From Gordonia sp. 'Campus' (lineage in GTDB: Bacteria > Actinomycetota > Actinomycetes > Mycobacteriales > Mycobacteriaceae): DNA of 64,000 nt. The first letter of the stretch is position 1, and the number at the start of each line of letters is the position of its first letter. The stretch covers positions 124,001 to 188,000 of the forward strand of contig NZ_JAKOIW010000007.1 in the NCBI RefSeq assembly GCF_022206305.1, read 5' to 3'. The notes under the pieces were generated by a model. The model saw only the letters and a list, made by a program, of their open reading frames with translations. It made no database searches and was not told the DNA's origin. Both the position numbers and the translations under genes were made by a program. Positions 3-14,224 of this stretch are shown here, one piece after another.

Positions 3-575
3 GGCGGCACGACCCGCGCGGGCCTGCTCATCGACGCGTCGCAGACCGGCCTGAAACTGTTCCCCAACAACACGATGATCGGGGGCTGGGCCTTCAGTGT
101 CGACAAGGGCGGGCCCGGCCAGGACTGGGTCGAGATGGCACCGATCCGCAGACTCGACGCGAGGTCGGGAAGCGGCACCCACCGTGAGGCACTCGGCCGG
201 GCGGTGGAAGAGGGCCTGTCGAACCTCGGCGGCGGAACCGGTTTGTACGACACCACTCTCGCCGCCTTCAAGAAGGTCCAGGACACCTACGATCCGAACT
301 ACTCGAACAGCGTCATCATCATGACCGACGGGCAGAACGAGGACCCGGAGAGCATCACCCTCGACAACCTGCTCGCGGAACTGAAGCGACTCGAGGACCC
401 GGCACGGCCGGTTCTGGTGCTGACGATCGGAATCTCCGACGACGCGGACTCCAACGCGCTCAAGCAGATTGCGACGGCGACCGGCGGCACCACCTATGTC
501 GCCGAGAACGCCGCCGACATCCGCACCGTGTTCGTCGACGCCATCCAGGCGCGGGTCGCCGCGGCGGGCCGCTGA
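3..575 (+). CDS. VWA-domain protein, C-terminal part (5' end outside window)
   Basis: The frame is open from the first bases of the window, so only the last 190 residues are seen. They form the second half of a von Willebrand factor A domain: a strand reading VIIMTDGQNED, a later strand VLVLTIGISDDAD, and a final helix AADIRTVFVDAI. Acidic residues in TDGQNED would sit near the metal-ion site; the first MIDAS motif (DxSxS) must lie upstream of the window. In Gordonia and relatives such domains often end long extracytoplasmic substrate-binding-like proteins, but the N-terminus is missing so this cannot be tested. It ends 56 bases before the FMN-binding lipoprotein gene and may or may not be transcribed with it. 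Confidence 0.8.
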   Translation, partial: GGTTRAGLLIDASQTGLKLFPNNTMIGGWAFSVDKGGPGQDWVEMAPIRRLDARSGSGTHREALGRAVEEGLSNLGGGTGLYDTTLAAFKKVQDTYDPNYSNSVIIMTDGQNEDPESITLDNLLAELKRLEDPARPVLVLTIGISDDADSNALKQIATATGGTTYVAENAADIRTVFVDAIQARVAAAGR

Positions 576-631: not shown

Positions 632-1162
632 ATGACCCTCACCCCGGAAATGTCCCAGTCGTCCGATTCGTTGTCGGCGTCCCGCACCCCCGCTCCGCGT
701 ACCTCGTCAGCGCTGGCACGGACCGGCGGGGTGATCGCCGCGATGGCAGCGGTCGGGCTCGTCGCCGGCGCGTGTTCCTCGGAGGACTCCGGTTCCGGCG
801 ACTCGACCTCCGGGACCACCGCGGGCAGTTCGGCCGCCACGGAGGTGGCCGATGCCGGGTCGGGTGACTACAAGAACGGTGAGTACACCGCGGTCGGCGA
901 ATACATCTCCCCGGGCGGGCCGCAGACGGTGGGTGTGACGGTGACCCTGTCGAACTCGGTGATCACCGCGGTGTCCATCGACACGAGTCAGACGAAGGGG
1001 CCGTCGCTGGAGTACCAGGGCAAGTTCTCCAGCGGCATCTCCGACGTCGTGGTGGGCAAGAACATCGACGAGATCGATGTGGACAAGGTGTCCGGCTCGT
1101 CGTTGACGTCGGGCGGCTTCAACGACGCGATCGCCCAGATCAAGCAAGAGGCCCAGGCCTGA
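632..1162 (+). CDS. FMN-binding domain lipoprotein (NqrC/RnfG-like)
   Basis: A 176-residue exported protein. Residues about 30-48 form a hydrophobic segment ending in the lipobox VAGAC, so Cys48 is the likely lipidated residue, followed by a Ser/Gly/Thr linker to about residue 75. The rest matches the FMN-binding domain of NqrC and RnfG. The flavinylation motif is read at residues 151-160 as DKVSGSSLTS, close to the consensus Dxx(S/T)GA(S/T)xT; the usual Ala and Thr are both Ser here, so Ser157 would be the FMN-accepting residue. The next gene encodes ApbE, the enzyme that attaches FMN to such motifs, and the one after it a membrane electron-transfer protein. An ACAATT hexamer lies 6 bases before the ATG, so the mRNA may be leaderless. 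Inferred role: outer-face electron carrier. Confidence 0.85.
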   Translation: MTLTPEMSQSSDSLSASRTPAPRTSSALARTGGVIAAMAAVGLVAGACSSEDSGSGDSTSGTTAGSSAATEVADAGSGDYKNGEYTAVGEYISPGGPQTVGVTVTLSNSVITAVSIDTSQTKGPSLEYQGKFSSGISDVVVGKNIDEIDVDKVSGSSLTSGGFNDAIAQIKQEAQA

Positions 1163-2046
1163 CGTCCCTCGCCACCGCCCACCATTGGGCGTTCGACGCT
1201 CTGGGCACCCGGTGGACGATCAGCACGCCTGCGCCGCTGACCGTCGACACGGTTGCCGCGGTGGAAGCCGAGATCGACCGGATCGACCGGGTGTGGTCGC
1301 GGTTCCGGGATGATTCCGTGGTCGCGGACATGGCGCGTCGAGCCGGCCGCTACGAGGTCGCCGAGTCCGATCAGCCTCTCCTCGACTGGTACCGCCGTCT
1401 CTACGACTTGACCGGCGGCGGGGTGTCGCCGCTGGTGGGCCAGACCCTCGCCGATGCCGGGTACGACGCCGGCTATTCGTTGCGTCCGTCGCCGCAGGTG
1501 CCTGTCGCGCCGGACTGGGATGCGGTGATCGCCGACCACGTGGGTGTCCTCGACATGCGGGCGCCGGCGCTGCTCGATGTCGGCGCCGCCGGAAAGGGTT
1601 TCGCGGTGGATCGCGTGGCGGCGATCGTGGCGGAGTGTGTCGGAGACTACGTCGTCGACGCAGGCGGGGACATGGCGATCTCACCGCGAGACCGAGGCGT
1701 TCGCGTGGCGCTGGAACATCCGCTGGACTCATCGAAGGCGATCGGTGTGGTGTCGGTGGCCGGCGGGGCGATCTGCGCGTCGGCGAGCAACCGCCGTGCA
1801 TGGGCGGACTGGCATCACATCGTCGACCCGCGGACCGCATCGCCCGCCCGAGAGGTGCTGGCCACGTGGGTGATCGCGCCGTCGGCGATGGAGGCCGACG
1901 GGCTTGCGACGGCACTGTTCTTCACGCCGGCGGCGTTCCTGCGCGGGGACTTCGACCATCACCGCGAGGGGTTTCATCACGTGACCATCCGACGCAACGG
2001 GAGTGTCGAGCACACCGCGATCCCCGGATTGGAGCTGTTCCTGTGA
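1159..2046 (+). CDS. apbE: FAD:protein FMN transferase (ApbE family)
   Basis: Transfers FMN from FAD to a Ser/Thr of target proteins. ApbE landmarks in order: FDALGTRWTIST near the N-terminus, DVGAAGKGFAVDRVA, VVDAGGDMAIS, and HIVDPRTASPAREV followed by AMEADGLATALFF. The N-terminal FDALGTRW block belongs to the family core and lies upstream of the first in-frame GTG (1261), and no ATG, GTG or TTG is found in frame between. The best start is CTG at 1159, which overlaps the stop of the preceding gene as CTGA and has AGAGG at 1147-1151. That gives 295 residues. The stop overlaps the GTG of the next gene (GTGA). The probable substrate is the lipoprotein encoded just upstream. Confidence 0.9.
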   Translation: MTSLATAHHWAFDALGTRWTISTPAPLTVDTVAAVEAEIDRIDRVWSRFRDDSVVADMARRAGRYEVAESDQPLLDWYRRLYDLTGGGVSPLVGQTLADAGYDAGYSLRPSPQVPVAPDWDAVIADHVGVLDMRAPALLDVGAAGKGFAVDRVAAIVAECVGDYVVDAGGDMAISPRDRGVRVALEHPLDSSKAIGVVSVAGGAICASASNRRAWADWHHIVDPRTASPAREVLATWVIAPSAMEADGLATALFFTPAAFLRGDFDHHREGFHHVTIRRNGSVEHTAIPGLELFL

Positions 2047-3623
2047 CATCGGTCCTCCCACGGTTACTCACGCCGATCGACGCGTCGCGGCGGCACCTGA
2101 CGCCTTACCGGGCGGTGCTCTGCGGGCTTCTCCTGTTGGTGGTCGCTGCCTTTGTGGTGTCGGTGGTCGACGCCGACTTCGGTTACGGGCCCGACGAACT
2201 CGCTGTATGGCTGGTGGTGGCGGTCGGGGTCAGCGCCGTCGTGAGCTACGTGTGCGCCGCCGTGGTGCGCGTGCCGCCGAACTCGGATTCGTGGCTCATC
2301 ACCGGCCTGATCTTGTTCTTCGTCCTGCCGGGCGGGTCGGAGGACACCGCGGTGACGACGGTCGCGGTCGGTGCGGCCATCGCCGCGGTGTCGAAATATG
2401 TTCTGGCGTGGCGGCGTCGGCTGTTCGTCAACCCGGCGGTCGCCGGCGCGGTCGGTTGTTACGCATTGGCGTACGCCGGCGTCGAGGGCATCAGCTTCCC
2501 GTTCTGGTGGGTCGCCACCGAGCCACTGCTCGTCCCGATGATCGTGATCGGTGCCGTGGTGGTCACCCTCATCCGGGACTGGCAGCTGGTCGTCGTGTTC
2601 ATCGCCGCCTCACTGGTCACGATCGGCGTCGTCGAACTGGTCCGTGGTGGTCAGGATCTGTCGACGTGGATCGTGTCGAGCCCGATGCTGTTCGTCGCGG
2701 CGATCATGCTCCCTGAGCCGCTGACCTCACCGGCGACGCAGGTCCACCGGCTCGTCTACGGCGCGCTCGTCGGTGTGCTGATGCACTGCCAGTACACGGT
2801 CGCGATCACCGATTCCTACACCTTGGCCTTCGTGCCCGAGGTCGCCCTGCTGGTCGGGTGTCTGTATGCGTTCGTGGTGCGGCTGGTCTCGGGGACCGCG
2901 CGCCGTGTGCCGCTCGACGTCGAGGCGGTTCCCATCGCCGACCGCAGCTACTCGGTCCGCGCGGAGCCGACCGGTGGTGCGCCCGCGTTTCGGGCGGGGC
3001 AGTGGTCGAGCGTCAGCCTGCCGCGATGGTCGGCGCCGGTGTGGGCCGGTTCGCGCCGGGTGTTCTCGTTCGTGTCGGCTCCCGGGCAGTCGCCTGTCGA
3101 GTTCGGGTTCACGGTCGCATCGGAGCCGTCCGCATACAAGGCGGCGCTGATCGACGGAACCGCCAAGCGCGCATTCGTCGACGAGATCGGCGGCGACTTC
3201 GTGCTGCCCCGCGGATTCCCGTCGAGGGGCCGGGTGGTGCTGATCGCGTCGGGGATCGGGATCACGCCGTTCGTGTCGATGGTGCGTGAACTGACGTCGG
3301 CTGCGCCGGACGCAGACCTCGCGGAACTGTCACTGGTGCACATACTGCGCGACGACGCGCGGGCGGTGTATTCCGACGACCTCGACGCCGCGCGCGCCCG
3401 CGGTGCACGAGTGGAGACGGTCGTTGCACCCGAATCGGCCGACGGGATCGACGATCCCGCACGCCTCGCCGAACTGATCGGCTCCCGCGCGGGTGAGGCG
3501 GACTACTACGTGTCCGGCACACCGGCGTTCGTCGAGGTGACCTCGGCGACCATCCGGCGCCACGATCCCGCCACGAGGATGCGTCCATGGCGCATCCACA
3601 CCGACTCGTTCACCGGGTATTGA
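2043..3623 (+). CDS. NqrB/RnfD-like membrane domain fused to ferredoxin-NAD(P)+ reductase-like domain
   Basis: A 526-residue fusion. Residues 1 to about 295 contain some nine membrane spans with RnfD/NqrB hallmarks: KYVLAWRRRLFVNPAVAG, and LFVAAIMLPEPLTSP, the counterpart of the FMATDPVTSP stretch. I do not see the Thr motif that carries covalent FMN in NqrB and RnfD. Residues about 300-526 are a flavin reductase module: FRAGQW, the FAD-binding RVFSFVSAP, the pyridine-nucleotide loop IASGIGITPF, and YYVSGTPAFV near the end. GTG start at 2043 overlaps the apbE stop. Known for the family: electrons pass from NAD(P)H or ferredoxin through flavins to the outer membrane face. Inferred: this protein feeds the flavinylated lipoprotein encoded two genes upstream. 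Confidence 0.85.
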   Translation: MTSVLPRLLTPIDASRRHLTPYRAVLCGLLLLVVAAFVVSVVDADFGYGPDELAVWLVVAVGVSAVVSYVCAAVVRVPPNSDSWLITGLILFFVLPGGSEDTAVTTVAVGAAIAAVSKYVLAWRRRLFVNPAVAGAVGCYALAYAGVEGISFPFWWVATEPLLVPMIVIGAVVVTLIRDWQLVVVFIAASLVTIGVVELVRGGQDLSTWIVSSPMLFVAAIMLPEPLTSPATQVHRLVYGALVGVLMHCQYTVAITDSYTLAFVPEVALLVGCLYAFVVRLVSGTARRVPLDVEAVPIADRSYSVRAEPTGGAPAFRAGQWSSVSLPRWSAPVWAGSRRVFSFVSAPGQSPVEFGFTVASEPSAYKAALIDGTAKRAFVDEIGGDFVLPRGFPSRGRVVLIASGIGITPFVSMVRELTSAAPDADLAELSLVHILRDDARAVYSDDLDAARARGARVETVVAPESADGIDDPARLAELIGSRAGEADYYVSGTPAFVEVTSATIRRHDPATRMRPWRIHTDSFTGY

Positions 3624-3713: not shown

Positions 3714-4262
3714 ATGTCTCACCGATACGACTGCGAGATAGTCACGTTCGTGGTCTCGCCCGCGCACGCCTATTTCGGTCGGCCCAAAGACGGACCCGCC
3801 GATGATGTCGAGACCTCGACGCCTGAGTCCGTGGAGATCGCCGCGGACAAGGGGATTCGTGGTGACCGTTTCTTCGGGGTGCGAGCGCACACCGAGGCGG
3901 CGGTCACGTTCCTGGCGCTCGAGGCGTGGACGGCGGCCGCGGGGGACGTCGACCCCGTGCTCGCCCGGCGGAACGTCGTCGTGCGCGGTCTCGAGTTGGA
4001 TCCGCTCCGCGGTCGCGAATTCGCACTGGACACCGGGTCGGGGCCTGTCCGGTTCCGTGGGGGTCGTCCCGCACATCCCTGTTCGTGGATGGACACGGTC
4101 GCCGGCGAGGGTGTCCGCAAGGCCTTGATCGGGCGCGGCGGGTTACGGGCGCAACCGTTGACCTCCGGGACGCTCAGCCTCGGCCCTGCGGTCATCATCA
4201 CCGACGAGGTCCTCGATGCGGGTCGAGCTGCAGACCAGGTACGGCGCGCCCAGCCCCTGTGA
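3714..4262 (+). CDS. MOSC domain-containing protein
   Basis: A 182-residue stand-alone MOSC (MOCO sulfurase C-terminal) domain. Visible landmarks are GIRGDRFFG near residue 45, the ARRNVVVRGLELDPLRGREF block, and the conserved cysteine in PAHPCSWMD near residue 125, the residue thought to carry sulfur in this family. The protein ends shortly after SGTLSLGPAVI, as short bacterial MOSC proteins do. Stand-alone MOSC proteins are linked to molybdenum-enzyme sulfuration or to reduction of N-hydroxylated compounds; which applies here cannot be told from sequence. GAGGGG six bases before the ATG supports the start. It follows the electron-transfer fusion gene, but the intervening repeats argue against tight coupling. 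Confidence 0.85.
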   Translation: MSHRYDCEIVTFVVSPAHAYFGRPKDGPADDVETSTPESVEIAADKGIRGDRFFGVRAHTEAAVTFLALEAWTAAAGDVDPVLARRNVVVRGLELDPLRGREFALDTGSGPVRFRGGRPAHPCSWMDTVAGEGVRKALIGRGGLRAQPLTSGTLSLGPAVIITDEVLDAGRAADQVRRAQPL

Positions 4263-4357: not shown

Positions 4358-5671
4358 TCAGGCGGCGTGGTCGAGTCTCATGGTGCGTCGGTTGTGGGCG
4401 GGTAGTGGGCGGCGGTGTGGGTCGATGGTGGCGGGCGGGACGATCCAGGGATGCCGGTCGAAGCCGAGGATCACATCCCAGCCGTGGTGGTGGACTTGAG
4501 TGTGGCAGCGTTGGCAGAGCAGGCAGCCGTTGTCGAGGTCGGTGCTGCCGCCGTCGGCCCAGTGGGCGATGTGGTGGACCTGCGTGTGCGAGGGCGGTGC
4601 ACCGCATTTGATGCAGCACCGGTCGCGGACGACAACGGCTTTACGGAGGTGGGCGGGGAACAAGCGCCTGGTGTGTCCCATCTGTAGCGGCACGCCTTCG
4701 CCGTCGAGGACGATCTCGGTGAGTGATCCGTCGCAGGACACTTGTTTGGCGGTCGCCTGGCTGATCGATCCGGTCCATGGCAGGGCCGCCGGGTCGCCGG
4801 TGGCGGGGATGGTGACCATCAGTTGGGTGCGTGGGCGGCCGATGCTGTCGATGCTCGCTCCGAGTGCTGCTTGGTCGAGGATCAGTTCGAGGGCGTCGGC
4901 GCGGCGTTGTTCTGCGGTGCGGCGATCTTCGGCGCCGTCGGGTTCGGGGCGTGGGCAGGAGCGTTCGTCGATCATGGTGAGGAACTTTTCGCCGATGGTC
5001 TGGGTGAGGTCGGCGCGGATCTCGACGCGTCCGTCGTCGGTGGTGTGGGCGTTGACCGCGTTCATACCAGCGTCGTCGGCGGCGGGTATTCCGGTGTCGG
5101 TGGCGTCGGCGAGGGTGTTGCCGATGGCGCGGGCGTGGCGCTCTATCTCTGCCGGCGTGGCACCGGACAGGGCTTGTCCGAGGAGGGCGGTTTCCTGGGT
5201 GGCACGCTCCTCGTTGGTAAGCGTTGTGGGCGAACGTTTGTCGATGTGCGCCACGCCGCGTGCGATGGCGTCGGCGATCTCGGTGGACAGTCGTCCGTCG
5301 GCGGCGTGACGGGCGAGAGTGGGCAGTGATGGTGAAGCCTCGACGATCCGCATGGTGCGCGATGCTGCTGTCGGTGCAAAACCCATGTCGATCAACATCT
5401 TTCGGGTGGTGGCGCCCGCCTTGCGCGCAACACCCAGAAGATCGAGTTGTGCTGTGTGGGTGACGATGAGCTGGTCGGCCGCATTGCGAATCAACCGCAA
5501 TGTGTTGAGCGCGTCGAACGTTGCCCTTCCGGCGGGATCTTCAATGGGCGGGGAGATCTCGATGAGCCGATCGAGGAGATTGTCGAGCTCTGTCATGACT
5601 TTACGATACTCGAACATACTGGCGAATGCAAGGGGTGACGCGAACTCGAATGAGTTCAATGTCGTTGCCAC
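4358..5671 (-). CDS. DUF222 / HNH endonuclease domain protein (13E12 family)
   Basis: A 437-residue protein with a long helical DUF222 region (about 40-300) and a C-terminal HNH domain. The HNH part shows two CxxC pairs (CIKC and CQRC) around HTQVHHIAHWADGGSTDLDN, with the final His in CHTQVHHHGW, so it should bind zinc and a catalytic metal. Proteins of this type belong to the 13E12 repeat family of M. tuberculosis and are multicopy in many Mycobacteriales; their function is not settled. The start is uncertain: besides 5671 there are in-frame ATGs at MFEYRK (residue 18) and MTELDN (residue 27), and the latter suits the domain boundary better. No partner genes or insertion-sequence ends were recognised. 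Confidence 0.85.
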   Translation of the reverse strand: MATTLNSFEFASPLAFASMFEYRKVMTELDNLLDRLIEISPPIEDPAGRATFDALNTLRLIRNAADQLIVTHTAQLDLLGVARKAGATTRKMLIDMGFAPTAASRTMRIVEASPSLPTLARHAADGRLSTEIADAIARGVAHIDKRSPTTLTNEERATQETALLGQALSGATPAEIERHARAIGNTLADATDTGIPAADDAGMNAVNAHTTDDGRVEIRADLTQTIGEKFLTMIDERSCPRPEPDGAEDRRTAEQRRADALELILDQAALGASIDSIGRPRTQLMVTIPATGDPAALPWTGSISQATAKQVSCDGSLTEIVLDGEGVPLQMGHTRRLFPAHLRKAVVVRDRCCIKCGAPPSHTQVHHIAHWADGGSTDLDNGCLLCQRCHTQVHHHGWDVILGFDRHPWIVPPATIDPHRRPLPAHNRRTMRLDHAA

Positions 5672-6374
5672 GCAATACTAGTCGCGCCACATTCGAGTCA
5701 TTCTTGACAGTGGGGAACTCCTGTCGCATCTGTACTGGACATTCGGCTTGCGGGGAGAGTCTGCTGCCTTTTGAACACTCGTCGGAGCTCGCGACGAGGC
5801 TGTCGCGTGACCGCAGTGATGTTTCGGAAGCCATGCGACGGGTGTGAGATCACAATTGTGTTCGCGCGTCGTCCCTGTGCGGGGCCGACACTTCGGCGTT
5901 TGGCAACTTCGCTGAGGGCGGGGCGGGCCCGCTTGCGGTGTCGTTGCCAGGGGAGTTCGATTCCTTGGGATGCCACCGCTGACTCTGCATCCTCTTATCC
6001 GGATTCTGGCGGTCTGAAGACGCGATGATCTCTGCTCCGGGGTTCCAGTCGTCGTGAATTACCCGCAGCCGAGGCCGCGCGTCGCGCCCTCGGAGAAGCG
6101 AGCTAGGCCCTCGATTTCGTCGTGGGTGCCGTACTCATCCGACGATTCTGGGTGGTTCGAATTCGCCTGCGCGAACGGCTGATAATCGGATTGCGTCGCT
6201 GGGGCCCGGTATCGAGTCCATTCCAGCAGCGATGGACGGGCCATAGATCCTTCCTAGCCGAGTCGCCGACCGCCCGGAACTCGCCAGCATGAATCAAATC
6301 GATCGGACTGCACGAGACGAAACGGTTACCTTGGCCAGCGACACCGTGATGCACGACGAGAGGTAACCAAACCA
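5672..6374. other. Gene-free stretch of 0.7 kb
   Basis: No reading frame here has convincing codon bias, a good start or a recognisable product. By eye the base composition is richer in A+T than the flanking genes. It holds two small palindromes: TGTGA-GA-TCACA at 5843-5854 and CACAATTGTG at 5851-5860. A TTGACA at 5704 lacks a matching -10. It may be the remains of an insertion next to the 13E12-type gene. Confidence 0.5.
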
Positions 6375-6788
6375 GTGGAAGACGAGGAGTTCTATCACGT
6401 GTCCTCGGTGAGCAATCGCGAGTCGATCGTCACCCACGGCCTCGATGCCCGTCGGATGGGCGCGGCGCGGGGGATCGCGGGGAGTGATCGTCCCGAGCAG
6501 GACGGCTGCTTCCTGGCGCGAGGCGCGCACGAGCGCGATCACTTCGTCCGCATGAACAACAGCGGAGGACCGGTGGACGTGTGGCGGGTCCGCGGTGTCG
6601 ACCCCGCACAGCTGTTGACCTCGCCCGCCGGTTACACGTACGTGCCCGGAACGATCGGCGCTGGGCGACTCACGCTGGTCGACGCCGACGTGGTGACCCG
6701 ACGCCCGGCGACTCCGGCTGCGACACCGGCTTTCGACACCTGCCTCACCGTCGTGCTCGACAGCGACGGTCCTCGAAAGGGCGGCTGA
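6375..6788 (+). CDS. Conserved hypothetical protein, possible ADP-ribosyltransferase-like fold
   Basis: 137 residues, GTG start, with GAGAGG about 12 bases upstream. The N-terminus FYHVSSVSNRESIVTHGLD has the layout of small ADP-ribosyltransferase/KptA-type domains (an aromatic-His pair, then a helix and xxHGL), followed by CFLA, a VWRVRGVD strand and YVPGTI. Similar stand-alone proteins exist in other actinobacteria as uncharacterised proteins. I cannot assign a catalytic Glu with confidence, so the fold is only a suggestion. No linked antitoxin gene is visible: the upstream 0.7 kb is empty and the next gene, on the other strand, is proline dehydrogenase. Confidence 0.6.
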   Translation: MEDEEFYHVSSVSNRESIVTHGLDARRMGAARGIAGSDRPEQDGCFLARGAHERDHFVRMNNSGGPVDVWRVRGVDPAQLLTSPAGYTYVPGTIGAGRLTLVDADVVTRRPATPAATPAFDTCLTVVLDSDGPRKGG

Positions 6789-6794
6789 CCCCAC

Positions 6795-7748
6795 TCACCC
6801 CGACACCAGCGCGCGGAGAAAGAACCCGACGTTGGCGGGCCGTTCGGCCAGGCGGCGGACGAGGTAGCCGTACCACTGCCCGCCGTACGGGATGTACACG
6901 CGGACCCGGGCTCCGGTGGCGGCGAGTCGACGCTGTTCGTCGCTGCGGATCCCGTACAGCATCTGGTGTTCCCAGGTGTCCGGCGCGCGCCCGAATTCAC
7001 CCGCCAGGATCGTCGCCGCCTCGATCATGGTCGGGTCGTGACTGGCGACCATCGGGCAACCGTTGCCCCGCATCAGGATTCGCAGGCACCGGAGGTAGCT
7101 GTCGTCGATCTGCCGTCGCCCGGGGTAGGCGACCGCCGGAGGTTCCGCGTAGGCGCCCTTGCACAGGCGGATTCGGGCGCCCGACGCCGCGAACTCGGTG
7201 CAGTCGTCCTCCGTGCGCCGCAGGTAAGCCTGGAGTACGGTCCCGGTGCCGGGGAAGTCGGCGCGCAGTGCGCGGACGATCGCCAGCCTCGCGTCGACGG
7301 TGGTGTGATCCTCGGCATCGATGGTGACCAGAACGCCTCGACGATGGGCCGCCTCGACGACAGTGCGCGCGTTCTCCTCGGCGATCTTGTGGCCGTGATC
7401 GGGGAGGTCGAGCCCCACGGCCGTCAGTTTGAGCGACACCTCCATCGCCTCACCCGTCGTCGAAGCGGGCACCGGCATCGCGTCGAGGAGTTCGAGATAC
7501 GCCTGCACGGTGGCGTCCGCACCGGCCTCGTCGATGGTGTCCTCGCCGAGGAAGTCGACGGTCACGGTGAGTCCGTCACGGCGCTGGTCGTCGATCGCGC
7601 GGATCACCTCCGGTAGGGACTCGCCGGGCACGAATCGGCGGACGACCTTCTCGGTGACGGTCCATCGCTGGGAGGTCTGTTCGATCCACTCGCTGCGTGA
7701 CGCCGCGGCGATCGTGGGCCGCAGCAGGCCGTCGAACACGGTACCCAT
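6795..7748 (-). CDS. pruB: Proline dehydrogenase
   Basis: Monofunctional FAD-dependent proline dehydrogenase of 317 residues, oxidising L-proline to 1-pyrroline-5-carboxylate. Typical TIM-barrel strands are visible: TVDFLGEDT, VSLKLTAVGLDL, LVTIDAEDHT, VLQAYLRRTEDD, IRLCKGAYAEPP, and MVASHDPTMI, with the C-terminal YIPYGGQWYGYLVRRLAERPAN that contributes substrate-binding Arg residues. The ATG at 7748 shares one base with the stop of pruA (TGATG), so the two are translationally coupled. A longer open frame upstream of this ATG lies within pruA and is not used. It is the second gene of the divergently regulated proline operon. Confidence 0.95.
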   Translation of the reverse strand: MGTVFDGLLRPTIAAASRSEWIEQTSQRWTVTEKVVRRFVPGESLPEVIRAIDDQRRDGLTVTVDFLGEDTIDEAGADATVQAYLELLDAMPVPASTTGEAMEVSLKLTAVGLDLPDHGHKIAEENARTVVEAAHRRGVLVTIDAEDHTTVDARLAIVRALRADFPGTGTVLQAYLRRTEDDCTEFAASGARIRLCKGAYAEPPAVAYPGRRQIDDSYLRCLRILMRGNGCPMVASHDPTMIEAATILAGEFGRAPDTWEHQMLYGIRSDEQRRLAATGARVRVYIPYGGQWYGYLVRRLAERPANVGFFLRALVSG

Positions 7749-9394
7749 CAGACGGCCGTCCAGTCGGTGCTCATGTGGGGATAGCGCGACGAGGTGGGCG
7801 GGGTGAAGGTCTCCTTGATCGTCCGGGTCGACGTCCAGCGCTGCAGGTTCTGCTTCGACCCCGCCTTGTCGTTGGTGCCCGAGGCGCGTCCGCCGCCGAA
7901 CGGTTGTTGCCCGACGACCGCTCCGGTCGGCTTGTCGTTGACGTAGAAATTGCCTGCCGCGTTGCGGAGTCGGTCCGACGCCAGCGCGATCGCCGCGACG
8001 TCGGTTGCCACGACTGACCCCGTCAGAGCGTAGGTCGCCGACGAATTCACCAGGGACAGAACCGTTTCGTACTCGGTGTCGTCGTAGACATGGACCGACA
8101 GGAGCGGTCCGAAGTACTCGACGGCGAACGATTCGTCGGTCGGGTCGTCGGAGAGCAAGACAGTCGGCCGTACGAAGAATCCCACGGTGTCGTCGCACTG
8201 CCCGCCGACTGCGACGGTGACCGACGGGGTGGATTTCGCGCGGTCGATCGCGGCCACCTGCTTGTCGTACGCCCGCCGATCGATCACCGCGCCACCGAAG
8301 TTCGACAGATCACGCACATCGCCGTAGGCGAGTTCGGCTGTCTCCTCCAGGAAGTCGTCACCCATCCGGTCCCAGACCGACCGCGCGATGTACGCCCGCG
8401 ACGCGGCCGAACACTTCTGTCCCTGATATTCGAACGCCCCGCGGATCAGTGCTGTCCGGAGAACATTCGCATCGGCCGAGGCGTGGGCGACGACGAAGTC
8501 CTTGCCCCCGGTCTCTCCGACGAGACGCGGATAGTTCCGGTAGCTGTCGATCCGTGCGCCGACCTCGCGCCACAGATGGCGGAAGGTCGCCGTCGAACCG
8601 GTGAAATGTATACCGGCGAGGTCGTTGTCGGCGAGAACGACGTCGGAGACCGCCGCGCCGTCACCGTGGACGAGATTGATCACGCCGGGCGGCAGACCGG
8701 CGGCTTCGAGCAACGCCATCGTGAGTTGGGCCGAATACGCCTGGGTGGGAGAGGGCTTCCACACGACGGTGTTTCCCATCAGCATCGGTGCGGTGGGCAG
8801 GTTCGCGGCGATCGCGGTGAAGTTGAACGGCGTGACCGCGTAGACGAATCCGTCCAGGGGCCGATGGTCGAGACGGTTCCAGACGCCGGGCGACGACAGG
8901 GGTTGTTCGGCCAGGATCTCGCGGGCGAAGGCGACGTTGAACCGCCAGAAGTCGACCAGTTCGCAAGGCGCGTCGATCTCGGCCTGCTGCACCGACTTCG
9001 ACTGTCCGAGCATCGTCGCGGCGGCGATCCGTTCGCGCCACGGCCCCGCCAGTAGTTCGGCCGCACGCAGGACAACCGCGGCGCGGTCGTCGAAGCTGGT
9101 GTGTGCCCAGTCGTCGGCCGCCGCGCGTGCCGCATCCACCGCGGCGCGGGCGTCGTCGTGGGTGGCGTTGTGAACGAAGCCGAGCACCTCGCGGTGCGCA
9201 TGAGGCTGAACGACGTCGATCGGGGCACCGTTCCCGAGACGCAGCCGTCCGCCGATGATGTGGGGTAGTTCGCGGCGGCCGGCGCGCGATTGGCGGTCGA
9301 GCTCATCGACGATCCGCGTTCGCTCGGGCGTGCCGGGGGCGTAGGTGTGGACGGGTTCGTTGACCGGTCGCGGTGGTGTGGTGACGGCATCCAT
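7748..9394 (-). CDS. pruA: 1-pyrroline-5-carboxylate dehydrogenase
   Basis: NAD-dependent aldehyde dehydrogenase family enzyme of 548 residues, converting glutamate semialdehyde to glutamate as step two of proline degradation. Visible: TPFNFTAIAANLP (188-200), WKPSP (212-216), the FTGST nucleotide loop, the catalytic Glu294 in VGETGGKDF, the nucleophile Cys328 in YQGQKCSAASR, and the C-terminal PFGGGRASGTNDKAG. The open frame extends far upstream of 9394, but that part runs through the divergent regulator gene and is not coding. ATG 9394 matches the family N-terminus. The 75-bp gap to the PucR-type gene carries a 28-bp inverted repeat that is the likely operator. Confidence 0.95.
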   Translation of the reverse strand: MDAVTTPPRPVNEPVHTYAPGTPERTRIVDELDRQSRAGRRELPHIIGGRLRLGNGAPIDVVQPHAHREVLGFVHNATHDDARAAVDAARAAADDWAHTSFDDRAAVVLRAAELLAGPWRERIAAATMLGQSKSVQQAEIDAPCELVDFWRFNVAFAREILAEQPLSSPGVWNRLDHRPLDGFVYAVTPFNFTAIAANLPTAPMLMGNTVVWKPSPTQAYSAQLTMALLEAAGLPPGVINLVHGDGAAVSDVVLADNDLAGIHFTGSTATFRHLWREVGARIDSYRNYPRLVGETGGKDFVVAHASADANVLRTALIRGAFEYQGQKCSAASRAYIARSVWDRMGDDFLEETAELAYGDVRDLSNFGGAVIDRRAYDKQVAAIDRAKSTPSVTVAVGGQCDDTVGFFVRPTVLLSDDPTDESFAVEYFGPLLSVHVYDDTEYETVLSLVNSSATYALTGSVVATDVAAIALASDRLRNAAGNFYVNDKPTGAVVGQQPFGGGRASGTNDKAGSKQNLQRWTSTRTIKETFTPPTSSRYPHMSTDWTAV

Positions 9395-9409
9395 GCCACT
9401 CAGTTCACC

Positions 9410-9437
9410 TCGGACATCACCCGAGCGATATGTCCGA
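9410..9437. promoter_or_regulatory. Inverted repeat in the pruA/regulator divergent promoter
   Basis: TCGGACAT-N12-ATGTCCGA, 8-bp perfect arms, lies between the pruA start (9394) and the -10-like TACTCT (9457-9462) of the regulator. Its position suits an operator for the adjacent PucR-type protein. Confidence 0.65.
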
Positions 9438-9469
9438 TCGGCAAGCAGTGCGGCCGTACTCTTGGCGAT

Positions 9470-11077
9470 ATGGACAAACCGGTGGGCGTGGCTCTGGGGA
9501 GGTTGATCCTCGCCCTGGACCGGACGCTGGCAACCCTGGTCAGCGCCCCGCACGGACTCGACGAGCAGGTCGCGACGGTGGCGATGCTCGACGTCGACGA
9601 CCTCCGCTACGGCCTCGGGCGTGCCGCACGGGCGGCCGACCTGTTCCTGCTCGTCGGCCTGCCCGACGCGGCCGCCGGGGAACTGCTGACCGGCCTCGGC
9701 ACGCACCGCCCGGTGGCGATCATGAGCAAGGCGCCCACGCCCGGGCTCGCCGATGTCGCAGACCGACTCGGGGTCGCGGTCATCGCCATCGACCCACACG
9801 CACGTTGGGAGCGGATCTACAACCTCGTGATGCGGGTACTCGACATCGCCCGCGTGGGTTCGGGACCCGACGGCGAGTCGATGCGCTCGGGGAACACCGG
9901 TGACCTGTTCGAGCTGGCGGGACAGGTGGCCCGGCGCACCGGCGGGCTCGTCAGCATCGAGGACGAGCACTCCCACGTCCTGGCCTACAGCACCGCGGGC
10001 GATGAGGCCGATGAACTCCGGAGACTGTCGATCCTGGGTCGGGAAGGCCCACCCGAGATGCTCGCCTGGCTGCGGCAGTGGGGGATTCTGGACGCCTTGC
10101 GCACCTCGTCGGCGGTGGTCACCGTCGACGAACGCGCAGATCTGCGGCTCCGCCCGCGCCGGGCGGTGGCGATCCGTGCGCCGGGATCCGGCGAATTCCT
10201 CGGCGTGGTCTGGCTGCAGAAGGGGGCCGGCCGCCTCGCGGACGACACCGACGAGGTCCTCATCGGTGCCGCCGCCGTCGCCGCGCGGGTGATCACCCGC
10301 CGGCGCTCCCTCGGCACCGAACACGACGACCTCGTCCGCACTCTTCTGGGTGCCCGCGGTGACATCGTCGACGCCGGTCGACTGGCCACCGACCTGGGTG
10401 TCGACCCGTCGTCCGCGGTCACCGTCGTCGGATTCACGGCACCCGGTGGCGAGCATGCGACACATGTGTCGGCCCTGACATTGCATGCCAGCGCTTTCAG
10501 CCCGCTGTCGGTGACCACAGGTATAGGTGACCGTGCCTACGCCGTCCTCCCCGACGTCATCACCGAGGCCGCGGTCGCATGGGCACGACTCGCCGTCGAC
10601 GCCGGCCGCAGACAGTTCGGGCTGCAGATCCGCGCGGTCGTCGCCGGTCCGGAAAACATGGCGGCCGTGCCGGATCTGCGGACACAGGTGGACCGCGTCC
10701 TCGACGCGGCCATGCGGGAGTCGGAGCTGATCGACGACGTCACCACCGTTGCGCGTTCACGCACCGGCGTACTGCTCGGTGAGATCGTCGGATTGCTTTC
10801 GGAGAATCCGGATCTCGTCGACTCCCGCGTGACCGAGCTCGCCGCCATCGACGCCGCCGGTGGCAGCGGTTTCACCGCCTCCCTCCGTGCCTACCTCGAT
10901 CATTTCGGTGATGTGCGGGCCGCCGCCGGCAGCCTGCACATCCATCCGAACACGTTGCGCTACCGCATCCGTCGCCTACAGGCGCTGACGGGTATGGACC
11001 TCGACGATCCGGCGACGCGGTTGGTGGTGGCGCTGTCCCTGCGCGTCCGCCGGGTGCCGGGACATCCGACCGACTGA
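9470..11077 (+). CDS. PucR-family transcriptional regulator of proline use
   Basis: A 535-residue regulator with an N-terminal sensory half, a GGDEF-like middle and a C-terminal PucR helix-turn-helix at about 480-520, where LRAYLDHFGDVRAAAGSLHIHPNTLRYRI is split across helices. It sits divergent to pruA-pruB with 75 bp between. In mycobacteria and streptomycetes a PucR-type protein next to proline catabolic genes activates them in response to proline, so the same job is inferred. The ATG at 9470 is preceded by TACTCT at a 7-base distance, indicating a leaderless transcript. A longer frame upstream runs through the operator and into pruA and is discounted. Confidence 0.88.
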   Translation: MDKPVGVALGRLILALDRTLATLVSAPHGLDEQVATVAMLDVDDLRYGLGRAARAADLFLLVGLPDAAAGELLTGLGTHRPVAIMSKAPTPGLADVADRLGVAVIAIDPHARWERIYNLVMRVLDIARVGSGPDGESMRSGNTGDLFELAGQVARRTGGLVSIEDEHSHVLAYSTAGDEADELRRLSILGREGPPEMLAWLRQWGILDALRTSSAVVTVDERADLRLRPRRAVAIRAPGSGEFLGVVWLQKGAGRLADDTDEVLIGAAAVAARVITRRRSLGTEHDDLVRTLLGARGDIVDAGRLATDLGVDPSSAVTVVGFTAPGGEHATHVSALTLHASAFSPLSVTTGIGDRAYAVLPDVITEAAVAWARLAVDAGRRQFGLQIRAVVAGPENMAAVPDLRTQVDRVLDAAMRESELIDDVTTVARSRTGVLLGEIVGLLSENPDLVDSRVTELAAIDAAGGSGFTASLRAYLDHFGDVRAAAGSLHIHPNTLRYRIRRLQALTGMDLDDPATRLVVALSLRVRRVPGHPTD

Positions 11078-11119
11078 GGTGCGACACCGCCCCGGCGGAC
11101 GGTGGGTACCGTGGCGTCC

Positions 11120-11998
11120 ATGCCCTCGTCGTCGACGTCGCTCTCCGAACTGGCGGGCTCTCGAGTCGTTGTCACCGGTGCCACCAACGGAATCGGGATG
11201 GCCACCGCCCGCGCGCTGGCCGGCGCAGGTGTGCGGGTGGTGCTGGCCGTCCGCGACACCGACCTCGGCGGACGTCGCGCACGGGAATTCGGCGGTGATT
11301 GCGAGGTGCTCCGGCTCGATCTCGCCGACCTCACCTCGGTGCGGGCGTTCGTCGACGAACTCGACGGCCCGGTCGATGTGCTCGTCAACAACGCCGGGAT
11401 GTTTCCCCACCTACGCAGAAAGACGCCGGACGGTTTCGAACTCGGCATGGGCACGAACTTCCTCGGCCCGTTTGCCTTGACCAATCTCCTCCTGCCGCGC
11501 GTCACAAGGCAGATCGTGTCGGTCGGTTCCGAGGGGCATCGGCGCGCGCGTATCGACCCCACCGATCTCGACTACCGGCGCACACGCTGGTCGTCACCGC
11601 GGGCCTACACCGCTTCCAAGCTCGCGGTGATGGTGTGGGGCCTGGAACTCGACCGGAGGTTGCGCGCCGCGGGGTCACCGGTGGTCTCGATGCTGACCGA
11701 CCCGGGTTGGGCCGCGTCGAACATCTCGAACAAACCCGGCCTCGGAGCCCTGCACCGGGTGGCCCAGGGGCTGGCGGGAGTGGTCGGCAACGACCTCGAC
11801 GCCGGCGCAGCACCAACGCTGCACTGCCTGACCGAACCGATCCCGCCCGGCAGCTATGTGGGAGTCGACGGGCCGTGGGGACTGCGCGGCCGGCCGGTGC
11901 TGTCGGGACGGGCTCGGACGGCGTGCGATTACGACCTCGCCGCTCGCCTGTGGACCGAGGCCGAGACTCTCACGGGCACCCGGTGGCCCCTGGGGTGA
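11120..11998 (+). CDS. Short-chain dehydrogenase/reductase
   Basis: 292-residue SDR with the Rossmann motif TGATNGIG, the NNAG motif, a catalytic Ser in IVSVGSEG and the YTASK active site. After the active site the chain reads MLTDPGWAASNISNKPG, the pattern of retinol-dehydrogenase/WW-oxidoreductase-like SDRs, which use NADP(H); the arginines in AVRDTDLGGRRARE after strand two agree with NADP. Substrate unknown. ATG 11120 is preferred over the in-frame GTG 11102, since TACCGT (11107-11112) stands 7 bases before it and would be the -10 box of a leaderless transcript. Stands alone between the proline regulator and glutamine synthetase. Confidence 0.88.
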   Translation: MPSSSTSLSELAGSRVVVTGATNGIGMATARALAGAGVRVVLAVRDTDLGGRRAREFGGDCEVLRLDLADLTSVRAFVDELDGPVDVLVNNAGMFPHLRRKTPDGFELGMGTNFLGPFALTNLLLPRVTRQIVSVGSEGHRRARIDPTDLDYRRTRWSSPRAYTASKLAVMVWGLELDRRLRAAGSPVVSMLTDPGWAASNISNKPGLGALHRVAQGLAGVVGNDLDAGAAPTLHCLTEPIPPGSYVGVDGPWGLRGRPVLSGRARTACDYDLAARLWTEAETLTGTRWPLG

Positions 11999-12052
11999 CC
12001 GGAAGAGCCTCGGACGCGGTGTCGGTGGGTGTGGGTCAGTGGTGCGATCGGA

Positions 12053-14224
12053 TCAGAGGATGGTGAGCATCTCGTTGTAGGTGGGCAGTGGCCACAGGTC
12101 GTCGGCGACGATGGCCTCGAGCGTGTCCGCGACACCGCGGACGGCGGCCATCGCCGGGATCAGGTTCTCCAGGGCGTACTTCGACTCCTCGTGCGCCGAC
12201 TCGCCGTGCATCCCGGCGATGGCCACATCGAGGGCGACGACTGTGTCGTGCAGCGTGCCGATCAGCTCGGTCAACTCCGGCAGAACCGGTGTGGGGGCAT
12301 CGATCCCGGCCATCTTCAACGAGGCGGCGGTACCGGCGAGCTCGCCCTGATAGCGGATCGCGGCGGGCATGATCATCGTCTTGGCGATCTCCGCCGTCTC
12401 CTTCGCCTCGACGAGGATCGTGAGGCCGTACTGCTCGAAGATGACGTCCTCGCGGGCCTGGAGTTCGCGCGCAGACAAGACGCCGTACTTCTCGAAGATC
12501 TCCACGACCTCCGGTGAGGTGTACTCGGTGACCGCGTCGACGGTCGTGCGCAGGTTCTTCAGACCGCGCGCGGCGGCCTCCTCCTGCCATTCGTCGGAGT
12601 AACCGTTGCCGTTGAAGATGACCGCTCCGTGGGTGTTGATGATCTCCTGCAACGTCTTCTGGACCGCGTCCCCCAGTTCCAGACCCTCACCGAGCAGCTT
12701 CTCGAGAGCCGTCGAGATGTGATCGATGGACTCGGCGAGAATGGTGTTGATGGCGACCATCGGATCGGAGATCGACTGGTTCGATCCGGGCGCCCGGTAC
12801 TCGAAGCGGTTGCCGGTGAACGCGAACGGGCTCGTCCGGTTGCGGTCACCCGGGTCGGCCTTCAGCGGCGGCAGCGTGTCGACGCCCAGTTCGATGACCC
12901 CGGCTGTCTTGGACCCGGTGGCACCGCCCTTGGCGATCTGGTCGAAGACGTCCATCAACTGTTCGCCGAGGAAGATCGAGATGATCGCCGGCGGAGCCTC
13001 GTTCGCCCCGAGGCGATGGTCGTTGGATGCCGAGGCGACCGCCGCACGCAGGAGTCCGCCGTACAGGTGGACCGACCGGATGATGGCTCCGCAGAAGGTG
13101 AGGAACTGCATGTTCTCGTGCGGGGTGTCGCCCGGGTTCAACAGGTTTCCCTGATTCGCGTTGCCCAGCGAGAAGTTGACGTGCTTGCCCGATCCGTTGA
13201 CGCCGGAGAACGGCTTCTCGTGCAGTAGGCACTTCATGCCGTACTTCTCGGCGACGGCCTTCATCGTCGTCATCATCAGCTGCTGGTGGTCGTGGGCGAG
13301 AACCGAACGCTCGAAGACGGGTGCGATCTCGAACTGACCGGGTGCGACCTCGTTGTGACGGGTCTTGGCCGGGATCCCCTGTTTGAACAGTTCGCGGTCG
13401 AGTTCGATCATGAACGACAGCACCCGCTCGGGGATCGCCCCGAAATAGTGGTCGTCGAACTCCTGGCCTTTCGACGGCGGCGCGCCGAAGAGGGTGCGAT
13501 TGGACGTCATCAGATCGGGTCGGGCATAGAAGAAGTGCTCGTCGATCAGGAAGTACTCCTGCTCGGCGCCGGCGTAGGAGACGACGGTGTCGACGTCGTC
13601 GTGGCCGAAGATCCTGAGCAACCGCATGGCCTGCTTGCTCATCGCCTGCTGGCTGCGCAGCAGCGGGGTCTTCTTGTCGAGCGCTTCACCGGTCCACGAG
13701 ATGAAGATCGTGGGGATGCACAGGGTGTTCCCGTTCGGGTTCTCCAGCAGATAGGCGGGACTGGTGACATCCCAGCCGGTGTAACCGCGCGCCTCGAAGG
13801 TGCCGCGGAGTCCGCCGTTGGGGAAACTCGACGCGTCGGGCTCACCTTGCATCAGGGTCTTGCCTGCGAACTCGGCGAGCGAGGCTCCGGTGGAATCGGG
13901 TTCGAGGAACGAATCGTGCTTCTCCGCGGTGAAACCGGTCAGCGGGTAGAAGACATGGGCGTAGTGGGTGGCGCCCCGCTCGATCGCCCAGTCCTTCATG
14001 GCGACCGCGACATAGTCGGCGAGCGTCGGATCGAGGGCGCATCCGGTGTCCACCGTGGCGGCAACCGCCTTGAAGACATGCTTCGGGAGCCGCTTCTTCA
14101 TCACGGACAGTCCGAACACGTTGCGTCCGAACGTGTCTGCCAACGGTTCGGAGAATCCGGGCGCCGAGACGTCGTAGGTCGTCACGGCCTCGATCGCCTG
14201 CCGGCGGGACATGCTGCCACTCAT
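12053..14224 (-). CDS. glnN: Glutamine synthetase type III
   Basis: At 723 residues this is the large GSIII class, not the approximately 475-residue GlnA1. Class features: [17 protein letters not shown] near the N-terminus, the metal/ATP-site stretch [13 protein letters not shown], the glutamate-binding [30 protein letters not shown], and [20 protein letters not shown]. It makes glutamine from glutamate, ammonium and ATP and forms dodecamers in other species. ATG 14224 has AGGAG five bases upstream, so the GTG two codons earlier, which overlaps that site, is not used. A -10-like TAGCGT and a small inverted repeat lie about 85 bases upstream. GSIII is uncommon in this order and is probably a supplementary enzyme. 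Confidence 0.93.

Follow-up and report, generated by a model that had tools for sequence, protein, structure and literature searches.

How can an enzyme that appears to stay in the cytosol attach flavin to a lipoprotein that leaves it? This question is raised by three consecutive genes of the actinobacterium Gordonia sp. 'Campus' (assembly GCF_022206305.1), carried on a 64,000-nucleotide stretch of contig NZ_JAKOIW010000007.1 (positions 124,001 to 188,000 of the forward strand; hereafter the window). The trio encodes a lipoprotein with an FMN_bind domain, the FAD:protein FMN transferase ApbE (FMN, flavin mononucleotide; FAD, flavin adenine dinucleotide), and one polypeptide that fuses an NqrB/RnfD-like membrane domain to a ferredoxin-NAD(P)+ reductase-like module. 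Our analysis revealed that this ApbE carries no export signal whereas its target is exported, a mismatch that is an unexplained, testable puzzle and is new in this analysis. We consider it probable that the trio is an NQR/RNF-like unit for one-way electron export, in which ApbE flavinylates the lipoprotein in the cytosol before Sec carries it across the membrane.

The trio belongs to the NQR/RNF-like class

The three genes share the plus strand and both junctions are 4-base overlaps, with the fusion starting at GTG 2043 inside a GTGA overlap. A first-pass annotation, made from the letters alone, had named the three products, and Pfam matches bear it out, above the family cut-off for PF04205 in the lipoprotein and for both PF03116 and PF00175 in the fusion (Table 1). 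In genes and predicted fold, the trio is a member of the published NQR/RNF-like class. These systems were named in 2021 from 127 clusters in 127 genomes, mainly of Actinobacteria and the candidate phyla radiation (CPR) (Meheust et al., PMC8238504). Their architecture comprises an NqrB/RnfD-like domain with a C-terminal PF00175 domain, an extracytosolic FMN_bind protein and a nearby apbE (PMC8238504, PMC11334425), and both papers propose one-way transfer from NAD(P)H to the outside. For Ktedonobacter racemifer, Huang et al. 2024 (PMC11334425) modelled the subunits in contact, noted that the covalent-FMN threonine is missing, and suggested that flavin on the lipoprotein reaches the site of a non-covalent flavin. 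The trio is alike in architecture and in the missing covalent-flavin site, and we found no structural difference. The minimal outward conduit from NAD(P)H to FMN described by the first-pass annotation thus matches a published proposal, with outward flow as the predicted direction; the three-gene set is real, but its class had already been published and its signal-less ApbE had been overlooked.

Structure prediction with AlphaFold resolved the fusion, modelled alone, into an RnfD/NqrB-like part and an NqrF/FNR-like module (predicted local distance difference test 91, predicted template modelling score 0.90). Among the first 50 Foldseek matches only reductase-type proteins appeared, and RnfD and NqrB emerged in a deeper look. 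The membrane part shows ten hydrophobic peaks that place the reductase module inside the cell. When the fusion was aligned by sequence to RsxD (NqrB itself was not aligned by sequence), the segment carrying Thr187, which we take to be the FMN-bearing residue of RsxD, was absent from the fusion. The covalent-FMN motif D..[ST]G[AS][ST] was found in none of 107 fusions; a more permissive form, D..[ST].A[ST], occurred in two of them. No ferredoxin domain precedes the reductase module.

These features separate the trio from its better-known counterparts. Na+-NQR and Rnf consist of six subunits plus apbE and possess both the covalent-FMN segment and a ferredoxin domain ahead of the reductase, whereas the trio has three genes and a fusion with neither. 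The Gordonia genome, rated 100% complete, contains a single ApbE (E ≤ 0.001), that of the trio, and a single FMN_bind match (E ≤ 10), the trio lipoprotein; for the Rnf-Nqr family PF02508 (NqrD/E, RnfA/E) it yielded no match at E ≤ 1. The trio therefore stands outside any Nqr or Rnf complex, with ApbE and its lipoprotein target as an isolated pair. Flavinylation-type clusters are common in Actinobacteria (Meheust et al. 2021, PMC8238504), and the MsrQ-like systems of that survey have a heme-type PF01794 membrane protein where the trio has its NqrB-like fusion. To the NQR/RNF-like class our analysis adds a signal-less ApbE, a CTG start, a patchy presence within one genus, and a link between ApbE type, target motif and acceptor residue.

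The direction of electron flow has to be weighed against that of the six-subunit complexes. According to a review, the covalent FMN of RnfD and NqrB sits close to the outer face and their riboflavin close to the cytosol; the usual electron flow is inward, leaving the outer FMN and crossing NqrB/RnfD to reach the cytosol. Were the trio to work in this direction, an external reductant would feed the lipoprotein and the fusion would make NAD(P)H. We find this scarcely credible: a covalent flavin at about -184 mV, as published for SaFMN3, would hardly reduce NAD(P)+ without energy input, and no PF02508 pump subunit was found in the genome. In the outward direction, which we prefer, the cytosolic FAD module of the fusion would oxidise NAD(P)H, and a non-covalent flavin within the membrane part would receive the electrons, in essence reversing the return limb of Rnf/Nqr. 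From there they would reach FMN held covalently on Ser157 of the lipoprotein, standing in for the covalent FMN that the NqrB/RnfD-like part lacks. The lipoprotein would then reduce an acceptor on the outer side, possibly Fe(III) or another metal or oxidant.

ApbE lacks an export signal

The trio's ApbE shares ADxxxT and HxxDPxT with E. coli ApbE and matches PF02424. It begins at its fold, with no hydrophobic N-terminal segment. The 60 codons ahead of the fold contain no in-frame ATG, GTG or TTG, and the candidate start is CTG 1159 in a CTGA overlap, with the same CTG in 6/6 close genomes (L269-L274, own included). Taken together, the overlap and the lack of a usual start codon imply a CTG start. 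In most other genus members, ApbE has an ATG, GTG or TTG slightly downstream of the CTG site.

To score export signals we applied one rule throughout, a mean hydropathy of at least 1.6 over 12 residues in the N-terminal region. None of 92 ApbEs near such fusions passed (ApbE was present at 99 loci, of which 7 dropped out because of strand or a missing fold landmark), and 96 of 101 FMN_bind partners did. The 22 ApbEs that a separate search yielded from genus members with the fusion again gave 0/22, with 13 of them from genomes already among the 92. As controls we used ApbEs from E. coli and Alphaproteobacteria, the class of the Mesorhizobium locus, leaving out the partial loci L261, L266 and L267; 20 of 27 passed, and three more scored 1.39-1.57 with RR-type signals by eye.

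A signal-less ApbE is not peculiar to the trio. This idea was rejected because actinobacterial ApbEs without a fusion within 1.5 kb also failed without exception (0/37, comprising 7 genus loci and the 30 loci retrieved for the class, with matches in 121 of 197 genomes). Other non-trio ApbEs below 1.6 were three chloroflexotal and one further actinobacterial sequence. A first attempt to find further FMN_bind-ApbE pairs with a hidden Markov model (HMM) returned none; in nine further actinobacterial pairs, possible members of the MsrQ-like class, eight ApbEs likewise had no hydrophobic stretch, and the ninth (L314) reached 1.99 in read-through sequence well ahead of its fold. Of 11 FMN_bind proteins from further pairs, six had a hydrophobic N-terminus, and the other five, which have long linkers, showed none within the 110 residues examined. 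The missing signal is thus a trait of actinobacterial, CPR and some chloroflexotal ApbEs.

In Vibrio, Salmonella, Treponema and Listeria, flavinylation takes place in the periplasm, the opposite order to flavinylation before export. The same export unit could follow their route if ApbE left the cell without a recognisable signal and flavinylated its target outside, as in Vibrio and Salmonella. Published descriptions favour it: most bacterial ApbEs are described as apparently secreted, typically lipid-anchored, with cytosolic ones named for cytosolic targets (PMC12052999), and an exported flavinylated Streptomyces protein is linked with externally located flavin transferases (PMC10339131). We judge this route unlikely for the trio, given that none of the 92 evaluated ApbEs near such fusions has a signal and that in several relatives (e.g. 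L042, L047, L050) the open frame leaves no room for one. Twin-arginine translocation (Tat) is not favoured either, whether for ApbE travelling piggy-back or for a folded flavinylated partner, with any RR pair present in just 11 of the 101 partners.

The order that we favour is flavinylation first. With a Sec/lipoprotein signal on the target and none on the enzyme, ApbE would attach FMN in the cytosol, while the prolipoprotein is still on the ribosome or shortly afterwards, and before it crosses the membrane; FAD export would then not be needed. No FMN_bind substrate other than this lipoprotein was found in the genome. Sec is able to pass bulky conjugates. Tentatively, and with somewhat less than even confidence, we extend this order to Actinomycetota, CPR and at least some Chloroflexota, where signal-less ApbEs may flavinylate exported redox proteins in the cytosol before Sec, with serine as the residue modified by the ApbE type of the trio. 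Such a mismatch would have been hidden from the 2021 survey, which demanded a signal on at least one target gene per cluster and none on ApbE (PMC8238504). Our search of the open-licence literature found no paper on flavinylation before export, and none of the titles and abstract openings listed there described actinobacterial ApbEs as signal-less.

ApbE type and target motif change together

The FMN_bind domain forms the C-terminal part of the 176-residue lipoprotein, behind a hydrophobic N-terminus. An AlphaFold model of residues 48-176 shows likeness to SaFMN3-D2, RnfG and NqrC; Foldseek returned no match reaching E 0.001, and a deeper look mixed IscU-like folds with RnfG/NqrC. In two genus regions, L042 and L043, the FMN_bind protein has no lipobox cysteine.

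A published motif, D-x-x-[S/T]-G-A-[S/T], places FMN on its last residue (review). By this rule Ser157 is the expected acceptor, in agreement with the first-pass guess. Across 49 partners the predicted acceptor column contains Ser (38) or Thr (11), the preceding Ala position Ser (33) or Ala (16), and the Thr159 column Thr (46) or Ser (3). Thr159 was dropped as the FMN residue because the published motif ends right after G-A, at Ser157. This threonine, two residues past the predicted acceptor, is almost invariant.

To relate enzyme and target, we reconstructed a tree of 107 fusions (108 loci minus L034, which was too short) and assigned ApbE types by score against an HMM built in this analysis, giving 69 A1, 29 A2 and 9 without. 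ApbE type changed once on the tree, against a shuffled mean of about 25, on a quick tree in which near-copies favour clustering. Lipoprotein motif classes changed four times and followed ApbE type with one exception: GSSLT (61) and GASLT (3) occur with A1, and GA[ST]xT (29) with A2. Directly after G[AS], all 65 partners of type A1 have Ser, whereas the 29 partners of type A2 divide into 23 with Thr and 6 with Ser; 8 of 107 rows gave no motif. On this pattern the trio clearly travels as a unit, and a serine acceptor with ApbE type A1 is a prediction new to this analysis.

These results bear on a further account, in which the lipoprotein is not covalently flavinylated (loose FMN or apo-protein) and ApbE serves some cytosolic protein. 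The compartment mismatch and the non-standard motif favour it, and a cytosolic ApbE of Klebsiella modifies a cytosolic fumarate reductase (review). We consider it very improbable, as the sole FMN_bind match in the genome is the trio lipoprotein, the fusion tree is mirrored in both ApbE type and lipoprotein motif, and all 49 partners have Ser or Thr in the acceptor column. Covalent FMN on the lipoprotein, probably at Ser157, remains our preferred reading.

The trio is patchy in its genus and also occurs beyond it

The first-pass annotation had looked to conserved co-occurrence of the three genes in relatives, and 19 of 20 genus regions show the order lipoprotein-ApbE-fusion. Together with the lone ApbE and lone FMN_bind protein of the genome lying side by side, this order argues against a chance grouping. 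The fusion itself occurs in 31/59 genus genomes and in 22 of the 61 genomes of the first relative set (own included). A phylum sample gave matches in 21/396 genomes at E ≤ 1e-8, of which 8 (own included) span most of the protein and the rest cover the reductase domain alone. Across the best 80 of 295 confirmed loci, some cut by contig ends, FMN_bind occupies position -2 at 64 loci and ApbE position -1 at 66. Going by record titles, the hosts include Williamsia, Arthrobacter, Microbacterium, Agreia, Saccharibacteria and other CPR, Ktedonospora, Dictyobacter and Mesorhizobium.

Two loci stand apart. L022 (genome G035) has only a distant fusion, 35% identical, with its own lipoprotein and ApbE, which suggests horizontal replacement. 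In L097, a record under the name Kitasatospora arboriphila, the fusion shares about 50% identity with that of the window and the VWA gene is 83% identical to that of the Williamsia record; this genome may be misnamed.

Neighbouring genes

Upstream of the trio, 17 of 20 genus regions carry a P-type ATPase gene, an MT0933-like antitoxin gene and a gene for a protein with SBP_bac_11 and VWA domains; in 13/20 a beta-lactamase-fold gene is also upstream, and some regions end before it. In L026 (positions 5667-12572, running from upstream into the window) all four are present. The row resembles the mycobacterial Rv0907-Rv0910 (ctpE) neighbourhood. The gene that the first-pass annotation called a VWA protein does encode a VWA domain, but combined with SBP_bac_11 and starting upstream of the window. 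The proposed link to the trio did not hold: the VWA gene is present in 52/59 genus genomes, including 22 of the 28 without the fusion (12 at 60-75% identity and 10 at 40-44%, the latter possibly paralogues), and 8 of 30 fetched VWA loci have neither FMN_bind nor ApbE within 1.5 kb. We therefore rejected it as a partner and treat it as a syntenic landmark.

Downstream, the protein called MOSC had also been proposed as a partner. Its gene lies beside the trio in only 8/20 genus regions and was rejected as a partner; the name fared no better, with no Pfam match at E ≤ 1 and no NCBIfam match at E ≤ 0.1. Farther on, the minus strand carries a 437-residue open reading frame (window 4358-5671), of DUF222/HNH type by eye, and several relatives have a proline dehydrogenase-like gene at this site. 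In L038, L042 and L043 the trio stands in another context, with acyltransferase-like and AMP-ligase-like genes before it and CsoR-like and DUF302-like genes after it (by eye).

To look for an acceptor, we scanned 103 of 119 neighbour proteins, from loci outside a 17-member Arthrobacter synteny group, and found no dominant family (HATPase_c 7, Nramp 3, E1-E2 ATPase 2). Within six genes of the fusion, histidine-kinase-like genes occur at 19 and response regulators at 18 of 80 loci, and P-type ATPases lie near the fusion, in varying positions, at 10/80. At most, these neighbours hint at the sensing of metals or redox state. An Nramp metal transporter gene directly follows the fusion in L124, L147 and L155, from Patescibacteria-type or unnamed metagenome-assembled genomes.

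Table 1. Features of the trio and its flanks, in window coordinates
Feature	Position	Strand	Basis or remark
C-terminal part of SBP_bac_11 + VWA protein	3..575	+	gene start ~960 bases before window
FMN_bind lipoprotein, 176 aa	632..1162	+	PF04205, E 2.1e-5, 25.5 bits (cut-off 22)
Lipobox AGAC, Cys48	codon 773-775	+	judged by eye
Flavinylation motif D151-KVSGSS-157, then L158-T159	1082..1108	+	
Predicted FMN acceptor Ser157	codon 1100-1102	+	published motif rule
Thr159	codon 1106-1108	+	conserved, outside published motif
apbE, FAD:protein FMN transferase without N-terminal export signal	1159..2046	+	PF02424, E 1.9e-37
NqrB/RnfD-like membrane domain + ferredoxin-NAD(P)+ reductase-like module, 526 aa	2043..3623	+	PF03116, E 8.2e-8; PF00175, E 1.9e-6
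Membrane part of fusion, residues 1-285	2043..2897	+	ten hydrophobic peaks, N-terminus inside
Cytosolic FAD/NAD(P) reductase module of fusion, residues 286-526	2898..3620	+	
182-aa protein (MOSC of first-pass annotation)	3714..4262	+	no family match

Weighing the proposal and its significance

Several observations weigh against electron export by a cytosolically flavinylated lipoprotein. On the target side, the motif departs from the rule, with Ala replaced by Ser in this lipoprotein, its leading Asp is present in only 19/49 partners, and known ApbEs favour Thr as acceptor (review). Concerning export, the hydropathy rule is no trained signal-peptide predictor, 7 of the 99 ApbE loci were not evaluable, 5 of the 101 FMN_bind partners fall under the threshold, and non-classical export of ApbE keeps a place among the explanations. 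The resemblance of the fusion to RsxD is moderate in sequence alignment (hhalign probability 72.6, E 3.2e-5). In the genus, 28/59 genomes have no fusion, which makes the system dispensable; 3/20 regions carry a broken fusion (L034 and L042 with an internal stop, L044 with a frameshift), and the L038 cluster (1/20) has no lipoprotein. Finally, neither the 80 clustered loci nor the 103-protein family scan revealed a constant neighbour that would indicate the acceptor.

As we read it, the trio would be a compact electron-export route, a simple stand-in for Nqr or Rnf built from one membrane protein, which brings its own reductase module, and one lipoprotein. If flavinylation precedes export across the phylum, models that need FAD export and an external ApbE would not apply there, and Sec would prove capable of transporting a covalently flavinylated protein. 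The serine acceptor predicted for ApbE type A1 would be a second testable departure, given that known ApbEs favour threonine.

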